From Clostridiales bacterium (lineage in GTDB: Bacteria > Bacillota > Peptococcia > DRI-13 > UBA5745), in the NCBI GenBank assembly GCA_009782505.1, contig WRIW01000011.1, forward strand, positions 1 to 54,039: 54,039 bases of DNA, written 5' to 3'. A model generated the notes under the pieces. The model was not told the DNA's origin, did not search any database, and saw nothing but the letters and a program-made list of their open reading frames with translations. This document shows, in pieces, positions 47,046-52,513 of this stretch; the stretch's first letter is position 1; the number at the start of each line of letters is the position of its first letter. Position numbers and translations under genes: made by a program.

Positions 47046-47477
47046 TCACATGATTTCTTCCAGTATCTCTAAGGCGTCCTGCACCAGCTTGGGGCATATG
47101 TCTGTGAGCCTGCCGCTTGCGAAAGCTTCCGCCCGCTCCTCTGGCTTGGCGAAATCATAGCCGATGAGGTCGCGGCACATGGTGCTGCCATTGCGTGCCG
47201 TGAACCCCTCCTGGAACTCCTTCACTTTCGCCTGCATGGCGTCGTCCTGCTCCGTATCCCCGGGCTCCCCGTTGCCGTGCCTCATACCGATGGCGATCAT
47301 GGCGCCGCATACCGCGCCGCAGGTATCTCCGCGGAAGAAACCTCCGCCGAATGGCCCCGCTATCCGGGCGGCTTCTTCCCGGCTGTATCCCAGCTCCTCG
47401 GCCCACTCCATCAGCACCTGCTGGGAGCAATGCATACGGTTCCTGAATCCATTGGCTATCTGCACTTTGCTTAGCAT
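47046..47477 (-). CDS. C_GCAxxG_C_C family redox-type protein
   Basis: A 143-residue protein of the C_GCAxxG_C_C family. The motif is present as NRMHCSQQVLMEW, GPFGGGFFRGDTCGAVCGAMIAIG and TMCRDLIGYDF, with a last Cys in DICPKLVQ: the spaced cysteines that name the family. Members are thought to carry a redox or metal site; some are near electron transport genes. It lies 14 bp after the second SLH protein gene on the same strand. Its role beside a B12-related surface protein is unknown. Confidence 0.88.
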   Translation of the reverse strand: MLSKVQIANGFRNRMHCSQQVLMEWAEELGYSREEAARIAGPFGGGFFRGDTCGAVCGAMIAIGMRHGNGEPGDTEQDDAMQAKVKEFQEGFTARNGSTMCRDLIGYDFAKPEERAEAFASGRLTDICPKLVQDALEILEEIM

Positions 47478-47491
47478 AACGACTGCCCTCC

Positions 47492-49132
47492 TTAGATCAA
47501 TTCGGCTTTTTCCAGCATACGCCGAAGCATCCCAGCGATCTCTCCCCGGGTGACCGCTTCCTTTGGCTTTATCTCGAAAACATCCTGAGAGAGAATGTTT
47601 TCCTTATAGCAAAATGCCAGCACGCCCTGCGCCCAGCCTGATACCATACGGTAATCCCCGAACTGCGCCAGCATGTCCCGGACCGCCGCTTCGTCGAGGT
47701 TTATACTCATCCCGCAGATACCCGCCGCCCGGGCGACCATCGCTGCCGCCTCCTCCCGGGTGATGAGCCCGGCTGGGCTGAAGGTTTTGTCCGAGACCCC
47801 GTTGACGAGGCCGTACTTAGACGCGATCCCCACGCTCTCATAGAACCAGTCGGCCGGCTTCACATCGTCGAAGGCGCCCGGGGCGCTTTGGGTCAGACCC
47901 AGAGCCCGGGTGATGATGGAGGCGAACTCCGCCCGGGTCATGGTTGCCTCCGGCTCAAAGCGCGCCTCGCTTTTCCCCCCGATGATACCCCTGGCCGCCA
48001 GGGCTTCCACATCCGCCCGGTTCTCATAGCCCAGTATGTCGCCAAAGCTCTTTCCCGGCGCGGTGACCGGCATGACCTTGACGTCCCCGTGCTTGCCTGG
48101 TAGCCCCTGCCCCGCAGCCCCAGCCGGGCTGGCTGGGGCCTGGATAAGGCCGACGTCCCTCATGTCATACAAGCCGGGCATCGCATTCTCCATTCGGTAA
48201 ATCGCTGCCAAAGCATACAACGCCTGCTCCGTGGACATTTGATTGACGACGCCGCCTATGGTTTTCGCGAAACCCCCACCTACGACGGCGTACTCCATCA
48301 GCTTATCCGCCAAGGTCATTCCCTCCACGACAAATCGGGCGTCGCTTATCCCCAGCCCCAATTCGCACAGGGCTACGATGGCCTGGGCTACGCTCTCGAC
48401 GCTTTCCCCGCTCCAGGCGCCGACCCCGCCCCTCATGAGGGAAAGGCAGCTAAGGGCGCGGCTGACGGAGGCTTTCACGTCGGCCCTGTCCTGATACTTC
48501 GAGAGGGCTTGTAGAGCCATAGCCGTGATATCCGGGTCGGAAGCCGTAGCCGTCTGGCTCAGGGCAAAGCCGCCGTCGGCAAGCTGCCGGCCCAGTATCT
48601 CCGCGATGTACATATCCCTCGTAGCCTGCTTGGCGGCGCCCTTGCTTTCCGGCATGTCGAAGCCGGCGCCGTCCAGGGCGATGAGGGCGTAGATGGGGCC
48701 GTTTAAGCCCTGCCATATGGTTTTCTCGAAGTCGCCCAGGGGTTCAGTCAAGTCGTAGCCGGCTACGTCCCTCGGGTCGAATCCCGCCGCCGTCAAGCCG
48801 ATGACGACCCTGGAGTACTCCGTATACTTCCGCTCGTCCAGGACGCCTTTGTTGTCTTTGACATATTTCTCGACGTTTCTGTAGTATCTATCATAATAGG
48901 AACGCGGGACTGTATACCCGCTCCGCGCCAGCCCGAGTATAGCCCAGTCCCCGCCGGTCATGTCGATTTGCGGATTTTCCACTGTCTTGTGTACATATTC
49001 CGCCGTAGCTTTAAGGGCCGCGCTTAAGCCGGCTCCGCTAAGCGCGGATACCGGCTCAGCCGCGGGCCCTGACACGACCAGCCCGATTCCCAGAGCGAGT
49101 GCCAAGACACGCAAGTTGATTTTTCTAATCAT
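47492..49132 (-). CDS. SLH-anchored alpha/alpha-toroid protein (paralogue without DUF4430)
   Basis: A 546-residue exported protein. Signal peptide about 1-30. Residues about 35-335 are an alpha/alpha-toroid of the prenyltransferase/terpenoid-cyclase/transcobalamin superfamily: DWAILGLARSGYTVP, PIYALIALDGAGFDMP, GGFALSQTATASDPDITAMALQAL, ESVAQAIVALCELGLG, and MSTEQALYALAAIYRME. Three SLH repeats (about 362-546) attach it to the wall. The toroid matches, block for block, the protein encoded upstream (49256-52165), but the DUF4430 and FIVAR parts are missing. It lies 123 bp after that gene, beyond a long hairpin (49193-49236), so it may be read through or have its own weak promoter; no separate riboswitch was found. 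Base composition is GC-rich throughout. Confidence 0.88.
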   Translation of the reverse strand: MIRKINLRVLALALGIGLVVSGPAAEPVSALSGAGLSAALKATAEYVHKTVENPQIDMTGGDWAILGLARSGYTVPRSYYDRYYRNVEKYVKDNKGVLDERKYTEYSRVVIGLTAAGFDPRDVAGYDLTEPLGDFEKTIWQGLNGPIYALIALDGAGFDMPESKGAAKQATRDMYIAEILGRQLADGGFALSQTATASDPDITAMALQALSKYQDRADVKASVSRALSCLSLMRGGVGAWSGESVESVAQAIVALCELGLGISDARFVVEGMTLADKLMEYAVVGGGFAKTIGGVVNQMSTEQALYALAAIYRMENAMPGLYDMRDVGLIQAPASPAGAAGQGLPGKHGDVKVMPVTAPGKSFGDILGYENRADVEALAARGIIGGKSEARFEPEATMTRAEFASIITRALGLTQSAPGAFDDVKPADWFYESVGIASKYGLVNGVSDKTFSPAGLITREEAAAMVARAAGICGMSINLDEAAVRDMLAQFGDYRMVSGWAQGVLAFCYKENILSQDVFEIKPKEAVTRGEIAGMLRRMLEKAELI

Positions 49133-49192
49133 ACCTTCCCCCCGACGCCTGTTCCCATTTCGTCCGATACTGCTATGATACCAGAAAGTTAA

Positions 49193-49236
49193 AGCCCGCG
49201 GGCAACAAATATCCTACATATCTGCTTCCGCGGGCT
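49193..49236 (-). terminator. Long hairpin terminator between the two SLH genes
   Basis: AGCCCGCGG and CCGCGGGCT form a perfect 9-bp stem. The 26-base interior can continue pairing (GCAGATAT with ATATTTG), and the minus-strand tail reads TTTAACTTTC. Placed 20 bases past the stop of the first SLH gene. The T run is imperfect, so partial read-through into the second gene is possible. Confidence 0.5.
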
Positions 49237-49255
49237 GTCAATCATGTCTTCTTCC

Positions 49256-52165
49256 TTATTTGCCTAATCGCTCGATATACCGCGTGAGTATCGCGGCAAA
49301 CTCAGCCCGGGTGGCGTTGCCCTTCGGGTCAAAGAGGTTGCCCGGCTTCCCGCTGAGCAGGCCCTGTATGGTGAGCCTGTTTACCGCGTTTTTCGCCCAA
49401 TCGTCGATGCTATACCAATCGGCAAACATCCTGTCCATGAGGATATCCTGCGGGATATTGCCTGTACTCAACTCGTAATTCAACAAGATAGCCGCCATCT
49501 GCTCCCTGGTGATGTCGTCCTCCGGGCCAAAGAGGCCGCCGCCGTAGCCGGCAACGACGCCTTTTGAAGCCGCCCAATTCACCGCGTCATAGTAATACGC
49601 GCCTTCCTCCACATCGGAGTACTGCCCGCCGCCTTCCGCAGCGGTTACCCTTTCGCCAGGGCTCCCCGCCAGCCGGTGCAGCACGGTGACCGCCATGCCC
49701 CGGGTCAGAGCCACATTCGGGCTGAAGAGCGCCGGGTCCGTCCCCGCCATCAAGCCGTTCGTATACACATACTTGACCACATCGTAGAACCAGTCCCCCG
49801 GCCTGACGTCGGCGAAGGGATTGACCCAGCCGGCGTCGTCTACCGCCAGCGCCGCCGCGCCGATGAAGAACAGGGAAAAGTGCGTGGTGGTGAAGACAAA
49901 TACTTTATGCTCGGCGTCATAATGGGCATTCTGCATGGGTACCGGGTTCCCGCTTGCGTCGAGCCAGTAAACCGTAAGCGCGGCTGGGTCGGTCCCCGCG
50001 GGCGGGTCATAAGGCAGCGTCACCGTGACTGTCCCGTCGAAGTTGTGGATCGCGGTATCGCCGACAGTGATGGCGAGATTGAACACGGGGCTGTCGCCGA
50101 CGATTTGCTGGGCGTCCGGGTCCAGTGTCGAGACGTCCACGGTTTCCATGAGGAATGATACGGCGGCGCCACTATCAAGCCCCTTAGCCAAACCCGCCAG
50201 GGTTTTGGCGTCGAAGGTCAGGCTGACGATCCCGCTTTCGATGGTGAGCTGGGCGTTGCCCTCGTTCGCTTCGGCGATGGCTTTCAGGCTCTCCGCCTTG
50301 ATCTCCGCCTGCACGGACGCCGCCCCGGCTATGCCGGTGACGCTGACGACTACCTCCGCCGCCGCGTCCTTGTCCGAAGCGTCTTTCAGCTTATCCAGCG
50401 CGTCCTTGATGGCGTCGGTGATCTTCGCGCTGTCAACCACCGCCACGGCGGTGTTGCCTGTGACAGCAGCGGAAACGGATACGGTGGAGGAGACTGTGTT
50501 GCTATCTTCATTTGCGTAGAAGTCGTCGCCGGCAAACTGGCTGGCGTCCCGATCTTTTTTAAAATCTTTCGTATAGTAGAGAAGTATTGAGTCCCCATTA
50601 TTAATCCGAACAGTATTTACACTGGCAATAATCAGAGTTTCGTTTACTTTATATAGCCAACCGGAATCAGGGCCATAAGTAAATTCCGCTAACGAGTTAC
50701 CTCCGGGCTTAGTCACCGAACTGATATATCCCGCTTTCGCGCCGGTTTGCTGATATCCTGCGGAAAACAAAGCTTGCATGATGACATCAGCGACTGTAGC
50801 GCTTTCATGTAAATCAGTCACTGTAGCGCTCAACCACAGCTCTTCGTTTTCACCATTCGTGTCTAATCCCTGGAGAGTAACATATACGACGAACGGATCG
50901 CTATCTTCGCCGGAACCACCTGCTAATATTAGACTGTTGATTTCAAAAAGCAAATCGCTTGCGGCGATATTGATTTCTGCTTGGGTAGCATCAGTATCTG
51001 TAAAGACGGTCTTTGCTTCCATTAGTTTTTCATTCATATTCTTCCACGTCAAGCTGGTATACCCTGACGCTGATAACGATTCCGCCTTATCGATAATGGA
51101 CGCTAGGACGTCTCGATTGACATCCGTTATTTCTTGGAGCTCTTTCGAACAATCATCCATATCATATAATTGATTGTCGCTATTTTTATAGCGCGAATAT
51201 GCGATTAATGCATGCGACGCTTGCTGAGTTGACATCGCATTGACAACTCGCGCCCCGGAGAATGAATCCACATAAACAAACCCTCCTCCGGGTTGATAAA
51301 ACTCCAGCAAGCTTGATACCGGGTTACTCGACGGCTCATCGTTAAATGTAAATTCTTCTCCTGTTGGATCCTTACCTAAAGCTGTCGCCGCAAGGATAAC
51401 TTGAGCGTTATTTTCTGCACAAACACTCCCGGGGAATACCCAACCGTCCCATTCAGAATCCGGGGATTTGTATCCACCCCCAGAAACTTGCATGGTTGAT
51501 AGCATATCAATTGACCGTGATATGATTTCATTATCTATCTCATCAACAATGTCCTCATATAGAGCAAAAACTTGTATAACCATAGCCGTCGTATCCGGTT
51601 CCGGATCAGCCCCCCATAATAAGAAACCACCGCCTGATAATTCTGCATCAACAATGGATTGGATGAGCTTTTTTAAATCAGCCGGTGAACCAAAATAACC
51701 GCCGGCTTTATACGCTAATAAGGCATAAATCGCTTCGTTGAGACCGGGGTTTGCCAAAAATCCCGGCTCTATTAAGGGATCGAAAAGATTATGCCCTTCA
51801 ACATCAGCTACATCCACACCGATTGCTGCTAATGCAAGGATAATTCTGGAGATATCCGTCGATCTGAGATTTGCCAATCCGTTTTCTTTGAGCTCTTTTT
51901 GAATGGTAGCATAGTAACCTTCATAATACATTTCGGGTACTTTATACCCCGAACGGGCGAGGGCCAGTATTTCCCATTCATTGCTACGCGACGAATCTGT
52001 ATGAAATCTTGGCGCCGGTACGGTTTCCAATATATAGTCAAGGGTGGCAAACAACTCATTATCAACATCCACACCATCCGCAGCCATCGCCGCGGGCAAC
52101 ATCGCAATCATCATCAATACAGCCAGCAGCAGCGATACGGTTTTCCTCAACAATCCTTTTTTCAT
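49256..52165 (-). CDS. SLH-anchored transcobalamin/intrinsic factor-like protein
   Basis: A 969-residue exported protein (numbering from the upstream ATG at 52180). Signal peptide about 6-33. Toroid (about 36-345): ILALARSGYKVPEMYYE, AIYALLAYKAGGYFG, SGGGFLLWG with DPEPDTTAMVIQVFALY, NNAQVILAATALGKDP, and MSTQQASHALIAYSRY. FIVAR-like spacer (about 354-421, ending DATQAEINIAASDLL). DUF4430/transcobalamin-C-like domain (about 429-543): ATVADVIMQALFSAGYQ, GYISSV, PDSGWLYKVNE, NNGDSILLYY. Then a beta-rich region and three SLH repeats (about 787-974). Toroid plus DUF4430 is the two-domain plan that holds cobalamin in human intrinsic factor and transcobalamin. The start at 52163-52165 has GAGGTGCGAC upstream. 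A cobalamin riboswitch and terminator control it. Codons up to about residue 550 are clearly more AT-rich than the rest. Cobalamin binding is inferred from family and riboswitch. Confidence 0.9.
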   Translation of the reverse strand: MKKGLLRKTVSLLLAVLMMIAMLPAAMAADGVDVDNELFATLDYILETVPAPRFHTDSSRSNEWEILALARSGYKVPEMYYEGYYATIQKELKENGLANLRSTDISRIILALAAIGVDVADVEGHNLFDPLIEPGFLANPGLNEAIYALLAYKAGGYFGSPADLKKLIQSIVDAELSGGGFLLWGADPEPDTTAMVIQVFALYEDIVDEIDNEIISRSIDMLSTMQVSGGGYKSPDSEWDGWVFPGSVCAENNAQVILAATALGKDPTGEEFTFNDEPSSNPVSSLLEFYQPGGGFVYVDSFSGARVVNAMSTQQASHALIAYSRYKNSDNQLYDMDDCSKELQEITDVNRDVLASIIDKAESLSASGYTSLTWKNMNEKLMEAKTVFTDTDATQAEINIAASDLLFEINSLILAGGSGEDSDPFVVYVTLQGLDTNGENEELWLSATVTDLHESATVADVIMQALFSAGYQQTGAKAGYISSVTKPGGNSLAEFTYGPDSGWLYKVNETLIIASVNTVRINNGDSILLYYTKDFKKDRDASQFAGDDFYANEDSNTVSSTVSVSAAVTGNTAVAVVDSAKITDAIKDALDKLKDASDKDAAAEVVVSVTGIAGAASVQAEIKAESLKAIAEANEGNAQLTIESGIVSLTFDAKTLAGLAKGLDSGAAVSFLMETVDVSTLDPDAQQIVGDSPVFNLAITVGDTAIHNFDGTVTVTLPYDPPAGTDPAALTVYWLDASGNPVPMQNAHYDAEHKVFVFTTTHFSLFFIGAAALAVDDAGWVNPFADVRPGDWFYDVVKYVYTNGLMAGTDPALFSPNVALTRGMAVTVLHRLAGSPGERVTAAEGGGQYSDVEEGAYYYDAVNWAASKGVVAGYGGGLFGPEDDITREQMAAILLNYELSTGNIPQDILMDRMFADWYSIDDWAKNAVNRLTIQGLLSGKPGNLFDPKGNATRAEFAAILTRYIERLGK

Positions 52166-52194
52166 GTCGCACCTCTTCATTTTATTGATTGAAT

Positions 52195-52225
52195 AAAAAA
52201 CGCCGGAAGCCCAAAAGGCCCCGAC
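52195..52225 (-). terminator. Riboswitch-controlled intrinsic terminator
   Basis: On the minus strand GTCGGGGCC pairs with GGGCTTCCGGC (one bulged C, three G-T wobbles) around a TTTT-type loop, followed directly by TTTTTTATTC. It lies between the cobalamin aptamer and the ribosome binding site of the surface protein gene, exactly where an attenuator is needed. A second weaker stem (CTGCC/GGCAG, near 52242-52267) precedes it and may act as the switching partner. Confidence 0.7.
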
Positions 52226-52315
52226 ATAATCTACAAAAATAAATTATGCCTGCCCAACCTCAGAGGCAGCACATCGTTCCCCGGGAAGTCTTATTTAAGC
52301 TTCCTGTGAAACTCC

Positions 52316-52470
52316 TTCGGCTTTCGGATGAGAGTATCCCGACTTGCCCCTTCGCGGTGCGCGCTTATGCAGGGCCCGACCCGCTAATGGGCTTACGGTT
52401 GCTGAGACAGCGCCGGCTCGTAACCCGGAGGGGACGTATCCCCCTTTGACTTCCTCTCAACTAAGCCGAT
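52316..52470 (-). promoter_or_regulatory. Cobalamin riboswitch (divergent)
   Basis: Minus-strand leader RNA. The closing P1 stem is ATCGGCTT (52463-52470) with AAGCCGAA (52316-52323). Inside, GGTTACGAGCCGGCGC continues to CAGCAACCGTAAGC (near 52391-52404), matching the conserved GGTG...CCGGCGC...GC-ACTGTAA core of cobalamin riboswitches with a few changes. Further on, AAGTCGGGATACTC (52332-52345) is the B12 box AAGTCAGGATACC with its last part altered. Spacing and order are those of the class. The aptamer sits 8 nt after the predicted start of transcription and about 90 nt before the terminator at 52195-52225. High B12 should cause early termination. Confidence 0.85.
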
Positions 52471-52484
52471 AATGATTTTCATTA

Positions 52485-52513
52485 AGTATATCGGTTGCGC
52501 CATATGATGTCAA
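52485..52513 (-). promoter_or_regulatory. Promoter of the riboswitch and surface protein transcript
   Basis: Minus-strand -35 TTGACA (52508-52513), 17-bp spacer, -10 TATACT (52485-52490): close to consensus. Start of transcription is expected near 52478, giving a leader of about 313 nt to the ATG at 52165. It stands in the 39 to 67 bases after the stop of the next gene upstream. Confidence 0.85.

Follow-up and report, generated by a model that had tools for sequence, protein, structure and literature searches.

A lid-less, SLH-anchored toroid as the candidate half of a two-part cobamide binder in a Clostridiales bacterium

The animal B12 carriers transcobalamin, intrinsic factor and haptocorrin are built from an alpha/alpha toroid and a DUF4430-type beta domain, and in transcobalamin and intrinsic factor (TC/IF) both domains contact the vitamin (PMC1796856). 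The same combination of domains is encoded by one of two adjacent genes in the window, which is the whole stretch of 54,039 nucleotides analysed here (contig WRIW01000011.1 of a Clostridiales bacterium), and the second gene encodes a related toroid without the DUF4430 'lid'. The locus thus raises the question of what a lid-less toroid does on the cell surface and, should it need a lid, which protein would provide it. It is poorly known how Gram-positive bacteria, with their thick wall, capture a scarce and bulky vitamin on the outside and hand it over to an importer.

The gene pair and its proteins

Both genes are transcribed from the minus strand, where the long gene (49256..52165; supported by its ORF, ribosome site and Pfam domains) is followed across a gap of 123 bp by the short gene (47492..49132; supported by ORF, Pfam and model), and both ORFs are intact. 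Translation of the long gene could begin at 52165, giving 969 amino acids, or at 52180, giving 974; the in-frame ATG at 52165, which is also the start chosen in the initial annotation, is preferred because it is preceded by the ribosome site AGAGGTG, and the ATG at 52180 is without a good one. Third in the order of transcription is a gene for a C_GCAxxG_C_C redox-type protein (47046..47477, minus strand; Pfam E 1e-29), which has a ribosome site, begins 14 bp past the short gene and is probably cotranscribed with it. The gap between the long and the short gene contains an inverted repeat, CCCGCGG ... CCGCGGG, with a T-rich stretch after it (49250-49180, minus strand), which is a possible terminator or processing site, so that expression of the short gene may be independent or attenuated. 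The pair is flanked by the C_GCAxxG_C_C protein, a phosphodiesterase and an AAA-ATPase-like protein (Pfam), and among these flanking genes Pfam recognises no EcfT, EcfA or CbrT-like S component and no separate DUF4430 gene (solo lid).

The long protein (49256..52165, minus strand) consists of a signal or transmembrane segment, a toroid, a helical linker, a DUF4430 domain and three SLH repeats, and the 546-residue short protein of a signal, a lid-less toroid and three SLH repeats. In the long protein the toroid is divergent (amino acids 31-350; 51131..52090, minus strand) and is delimited by BLASTP to the short toroid, by the AlphaFold model and by Foldseek; the DUF4430 domain, a transcobalamin-like beta-grasp or 'cis lid' (50567..50791, minus strand), matches Pfam PF14478 above the cut-off (E 5.8e-8). 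The short toroid (amino acids 33-317; 48182..49036, minus strand) has six inner helices whose N-termini bear invariant polar residues, and it is 33% identical to the long one (BLASTP E 2e-37). Both proteins have a hydrophobic segment at the N-terminus, recognised from the sequence, and three SLH repeats each (Pfam E 1e-28 and 9e-34), those of the long protein (49259..49831, minus strand) with PDB sequence matches to the SLH of B. anthracis Sap and those of the short protein (47495..48064, minus strand) with Foldseek matches to the SLH domains 3pyw and 6bt4. DUF4430 gives no Pfam match in the short protein at E up to 1, and the initial annotation is confirmed in that toroid and SLH repeats are the same in both proteins and DUF4430 is confined to the long one. 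The FIVAR domain that it placed in the long protein stands in part: the segment concerned (amino acids 355-420; 50921..51118, minus strand) is a FIVAR-like linker of three helices predicted in the model, with a weak NCBIfam match to the ZmpB region (E 3e-6), but Pfam finds no FIVAR there even at E 1. As there is no DUF4430 in its chain, the short protein is classed here as working like one half of a binder and not as a member of the TC/IF type.

The model of the short protein (pLDDT 91.7) contains a toroid and an SLH domain, and Foldseek identifies an alpha/alpha toroid with matches to TC/IF and other toroids both in this model and in the AlphaFold model of the long protein (pLDDT 84.2). The 15 best PDB matches of the long model are all transcobalamin, intrinsic factor or haptocorrin and span both domains from end to end, with an rmsd of 9-14 Å or more and TM values of 0.3-0.5, and because of this high rmsd the closed two-domain geometry of these carriers is not considered to be reproduced in the long model. 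Profile searches of the PDB with toroid and lid do not extend to transcobalamin; they detect no similarity between the bacterial and the animal toroid, and on sequence alone squalene-hopene cyclase, not transcobalamin, is the nearer match of the bacterial toroid. The connection with the animal proteins is drawn from the fold search and from the Pfam DUF4430 match.

Conserved polar residues of the toroid gather at the N-termini of the inner helices (assigned from helix order), where 12 of 22 fall within 42 positions, and none is found at the N-termini of the outer helices (p 5e-6). In the model these residues are predicted to ring one mouth of the toroid barrel, and with such a conserved polar ring the role of a scaffold, one of those first suggested for the short protein, is unlikely. 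A cavity signature was defined as the 71 positions that at least 90% of the lid-less toroids share; 67 of them are kept in the short protein of the window, which argues for an equivalent cavity, compared with 47 in the long protein of the window and 63 in the long protein of a second copy in the same genome. It is therefore the long protein that has drifted and not the short one, and the notion that the short protein is a degenerate copy is ruled out by the same 67 of 71 positions. Where the family has a nearly invariant E, H and Q, the short protein of the window has D62, K290 and R234, respectively, and position 290, a histidine in the family, is tyrosine in the long protein. Given these departures and the absence of adjacent lid or ECF genes, the ligand of the window copy may have changed.

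A tree of 129 toroids places the short toroid of the window in a clade of 39 rows, 37 of which are stand-alone lid-less toroids, and within it in a supported subset of 11 rows that also holds the second short protein of the same genome; the long toroid forms a lone long branch (2.66) elsewhere in the tree. A recent tandem duplication is ruled out by these distant placements, and the two genes are, as judged from their sequences, ancient and not recent duplicates. Their description as tandem paralogues is thus apt in the broad sense, with homologous toroids (E 2e-37), but does not extend to a recent duplication. Recent tandem paralogues that differ in the lid are better exemplified by the locus L020 (4565-8937, plus strand), where adjacent lidded and lid-less toroid genes group together within the lid-less clade.

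Solo lids as neighbours of lid-less toroids

Relatives of the short protein were collected without regard to their neighbours, which gave 76 loci; stand-alone lid-less toroid genes outside the window number 52, of which 47 could be evaluated downstream and 49 upstream. Of the 47, 42 have a solo DUF4430 gene directly downstream of the lid-less toroid gene, typically with a gap of 2-30 bp, and 27 of the 49 are immediately preceded by a gene that carries DUF4430. The latter count shows that the pair seen in the window is conserved in other genomes, a check that the initial annotation had called for. The order toroid, solo lid, EcfT and EcfA on one strand occurs at 56 of the 76 loci, and the toroid gene is without DUF4430 at 35 of these and encodes a protein with its own DUF4430 at the other 21 (Paenibacillus, Clostridium and others); in many of the lidded Paenibacillus proteins the toroid nearest the solo-lid gene occupies the extreme C-terminus. 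An unbiased sample of 398 genomes drawn evenly across the phylum contains a strong toroid in 15, and in 14 of these a solo lid lies on the same strand no more than 2.3 kb downstream; in the fifteenth genome (G288) 3 of 11 candidates were scored. The idea that the short protein is a finished, lid-less binder fares poorly against these counts (42/47 and 14/15), according to which the tightest gene partner of such a toroid is a separate membrane-anchored DUF4430 protein.

Solo lids have an N-terminal hydrophobic segment in all 35 cases examined, and their stalk, where measurable, usually consists of about 60-260 low-complexity residues. In a DUF4430 tree they form a single clade (69 of 70 rows, support 99/94), and the DUF4430 of the long protein falls outside it. 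The only row of this clade that is not a solo lid is a natural fusion (L028, 9389-10909, plus strand), in which a lid of the solo clade comes first and a toroid of the lid-less clade second, a domain order opposite to that of transcobalamin. Although it is one protein from one MAG, this fusion is the strongest single hint that toroid and solo lid may act as one unit; no further lid-toroid fusion was seen among the 398 genomes, for each of which the best few candidates were scored. A mirror-tree comparison of toroid and solo lid gives a partial r of 0.21, against 0.16 for toroid and EcfT, and 18 of 500 permutations are as high.

The genome that contains the window holds a second copy of the pair on contig C51 (L089), where the order is long gene, short gene, DUF2284 gene, solo DUF4430, EcfT and double EcfA, with the long gene and the double EcfA each cut by a contig end. 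The short protein of this copy is 53-55% identical to that of the window, and its solo DUF4430 protein, which has 280 amino acids and an N-terminal membrane segment, is the only solo lid detected in this genome. The DUF2284 label of the gene that follows the short gene on C51 (L089, 4553-5074, plus strand) is a reading from the sequence. Each short gene of this genome is followed by a gene for a small cysteine-rich protein of redox or metal-binding type (C_GCAxxG_C_C in the window, DUF2284-like on C51), which is perhaps linked to corrinoid reduction; neither of these neighbours is conserved beside toroids in the other loci. A further DUF4430 protein of this genome is encoded on contig C69 (L090, 807-3155, plus strand) and has no recognised toroid in the part present. 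A pair comparable to that of the window is present in Paenibacillus lignilyticus (L013, 9548-15386, plus strand), where a riboswitch is followed by a lid-less toroid gene and then by a toroid-plus-DUF4430 gene; no solo lid or ECF genes were recognised at this locus, which is transporter-less like the window.

Riboswitches, transporter genes and the leader of the long gene

At 51 loci a toroid, DUF4430 or EcfT gene has a cobalamin riboswitch no more than 2 kb upstream; matches at the Rfam gathering level occur in 12 loci, and all seven riboswitch loci that were rechecked with Rfam were confirmed. Two genomes of the same genus have a cobalamin riboswitch upstream of the short gene, and on C51 a candidate AdoCbl-type riboswitch directly precedes the solo lid (L089, 5157-5231, plus strand; RF01482, 34.8 bits with a gathering threshold of 50, E 6.6e-5). 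The S component of the relatives has matches to ECF S-component families in Pfam, and its best PDB match is 6FNP (E 3e-11), the structure of ECF-CbrT, which is a cobalamin importer of Lactobacillus delbrueckii (PMC5997447). It is encoded by a separate gene in L031 and is fused to EcfA in others, such as L121 from the same genus. At L010 (13362-15881, plus strand) and similar loci EcfA, EcfA and S are combined in one protein, an unusual arrangement for an ECF importer. An ECF module with an S component is common to ECF-CbrT and the relatives, but the latter combine dedicated EcfT and EcfAA(-S) genes with surface binders, of which none is described for ECF-CbrT in the accessible part of that source; the window locus itself has no adjacent dedicated ECF genes. 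The suggestion that the short protein binds a different ligand is affected by this B12-uptake context, which makes a non-cobamide ligand less likely; a different cobamide is possible.

Upstream of the long gene, a sigma-70 type promoter (TTGACA-17-TATACT; 52485..52513, minus strand; 11/12 matches in a consensus scan) is followed by a structured leader (52190..52485, minus strand; fold z -2.6), and an intrinsic terminator with a stem and a T run is located just before the start codon (52222-52206, minus strand). The first part of the leader (52485-52309, minus strand) aligns end to end and on the right strand with RF00174 at a sub-threshold score (14.3 bits, cut-off 31.5; E 0.18 when 411 bases are searched with 4227 families) and is a candidate cobalamin riboswitch of divergent type. 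Inspected by eye, its core reads ACCG...CGGG in place of the conserved ACUG...CAGG, which would be a compensating change from U-A to C-G. The window leader is not recognised by a riboswitch model of our own (R1), RF00174 has no match in a genome-wide search of the window's genome, in which the AdoCbl-type candidate on C51 escaped it too, and 24 genomes of the order contain no close sequence relative of the leader, the one match of 32 bases lying at the threshold (E 0.00975).

A split binder and its alternatives

In the reading favoured here, at a probability of roughly 0.6, the short protein contributes the toroid to a two-part cobamide binder; it is held at the wall by its SLH repeats and receives its lid from a separate membrane-anchored DUF4430 protein. 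Wall-anchored toroids would capture the cobamide, and the long protein, whose chain includes its own type of lid, would serve as a second surface catcher. The membrane-tethered solo lid, on its long flexible stalk, would close over the lid-less toroid, and the ligand would pass to the CbrT-like S component and be imported. The window pair would be an extra copy that makes use of the solo lid from C51 or, less likely, of the DUF4430 of its neighbour. We infer a lid in trans, the binding of a cobamide, the order of hand-over and the reliance of the window copy on the lid from C51. The chances are about even that the system works, more specifically, as a split transcobalamin in which the wall toroid and the membrane-tethered lid close on the cobamide in trans only beside the ECF importer, so that capture is coupled to delivery. 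The role of a receiver that had been proposed for the short protein is possible as one step in a relay, and the conserved neighbourhood can equally reflect a shared pathway without contact. If the favoured reading is true, some Gram-positive bacteria enclose B12 with two proteins instead of a single one, and a two-chain carrier of this kind would allow delivery at the right place, with closure only at the membrane. The split halves are easy to express, so the question is directly accessible to test.

The general idea is not new because Burroughs, Balaji, Iyer and Aravind (2007) predicted B12 scavenging by toroid-DUF4430 proteins in low-GC Gram-positives. They defined the transcobalamin-like SLBB domain (PMC1796856), which corresponds to DUF4430 here, described its fusions with toroids, FIVAR fusions, and operons in which CbiO/CbiQ-like genes occur together with a second SLBB protein, and proposed a transfer to animals; the favoured reading, if true, bears on this proposed acquisition of intrinsic factor and transcobalamin. 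The toroid/SLBB fusions, the FIVAR fusions, the CbiO/CbiQ-like operons and the second SLBB protein are common to their proteins and those described here, whereas the lid-less toroid as a conserved subunit, the solo-lid clade, the riboswitch linkage and the CbrT-like S component do not feature in the accessible part of that account. A split arrangement with the lid in trans was not found described in the literature searched, which for the most part did not include subscription papers and preprints. In the animal carriers the lid is part of the chain, as in the long protein, but for the short protein it is proposed to come from another protein, and anchoring by SLH repeats belongs to the bacterial side. 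Closure by two chains is chemically reasonable because the fragments IF30 and IF20 of cleaved intrinsic factor reassemble and bind B12 tightly as IF30-Cbl-IF20 (review PMC6257451); there too two chains surround B12, but they are the proteolysis product of one chain and not encoded by two genes. BtuG and BtuH of Bacteroides likewise capture B12 at the surface ahead of a transporter (PMC6977713, PMC6143338), but they have unrelated folds and act at a Gram-negative outer membrane with BtuB as partner.

Several other explanations have to be weighed against a lid supplied by the solo DUF4430 protein. The short toroid alone might bind a cobamide or an incomplete corrinoid (cobinamide) with low affinity as part of an open relay, the solo lid having a separate job at the transporter. 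Such a relay would fit a polar ring that is fully conserved without a lid, the different anchors of toroid (wall) and solo lid (membrane), and the mirror-tree values (0.21 against 0.16), which give no clear sign of co-evolution beyond the operon; it is nevertheless unlikely, with a modest chance at most, given that the solo lid adjoins the toroid in 42 of 47 cases, that a natural fusion of the two exists and that both domains touch B12 in the known TC/IF structures (PMC1796856). The short toroid might also take its lid in trans from the long protein next to it, whose DUF4430 would close it, so that long and short proteins form one surface complex. Long and short genes lie side by side both in the window and on C51, a DUF4430 gene directly precedes the lid-less toroid gene in 27 of 49 relatives, and complexes of paralogous SLBB proteins were suggested by Burroughs et al. 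(PMC1796856). This explanation is given a slim chance, since the long protein has a toroid of its own, its DUF4430 falls outside the solo-lid clade, and many lid-less toroid genes have a solo lid but no such upstream gene.

The remaining alternatives concern what the toroids themselves have become. With neither lid nor transporter nearby, H290 replaced by lysine in the short and by tyrosine in the long protein, and the long toroid reduced to 47 of 71 positions on a long branch, the window pair could be a duplicate without ECF genes that has diverged and taken on another ligand or a structural role in the S-layer; the chance of this is small, as the short protein keeps 67 of the 71 positions and the leader resembles a cobalamin riboswitch, if below the threshold (RF00174, 14.3 bits). 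An enzyme of the squalene-hopene cyclase or prenyltransferase type is suggested by the PDB profile matches of the toroid, the closest of which are squalene-hopene cyclases, and is nonetheless next to impossible: the class II motif DxDD is absent, amino acids 199-203 reading DPDIT with isoleucine at position 202 in 87% of the family, and the proteins are secreted, anchored by SLH repeats and found in the context of B12 riboswitches and a CbrT-like component. A terpene cyclase was accordingly rejected for want of a DxDD motif in the toroid.

The gene content of the organism fits a scavenger of the vitamin, since five B12-binding domain matches above the cut-off are present and neither CbiD nor CbiC was found in this genome, which is 83% complete. 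The window itself contains, apart from the toroid pair, an ORF of 690 amino acids with the B12-binding domain PF02310 (4318-6390, minus strand).
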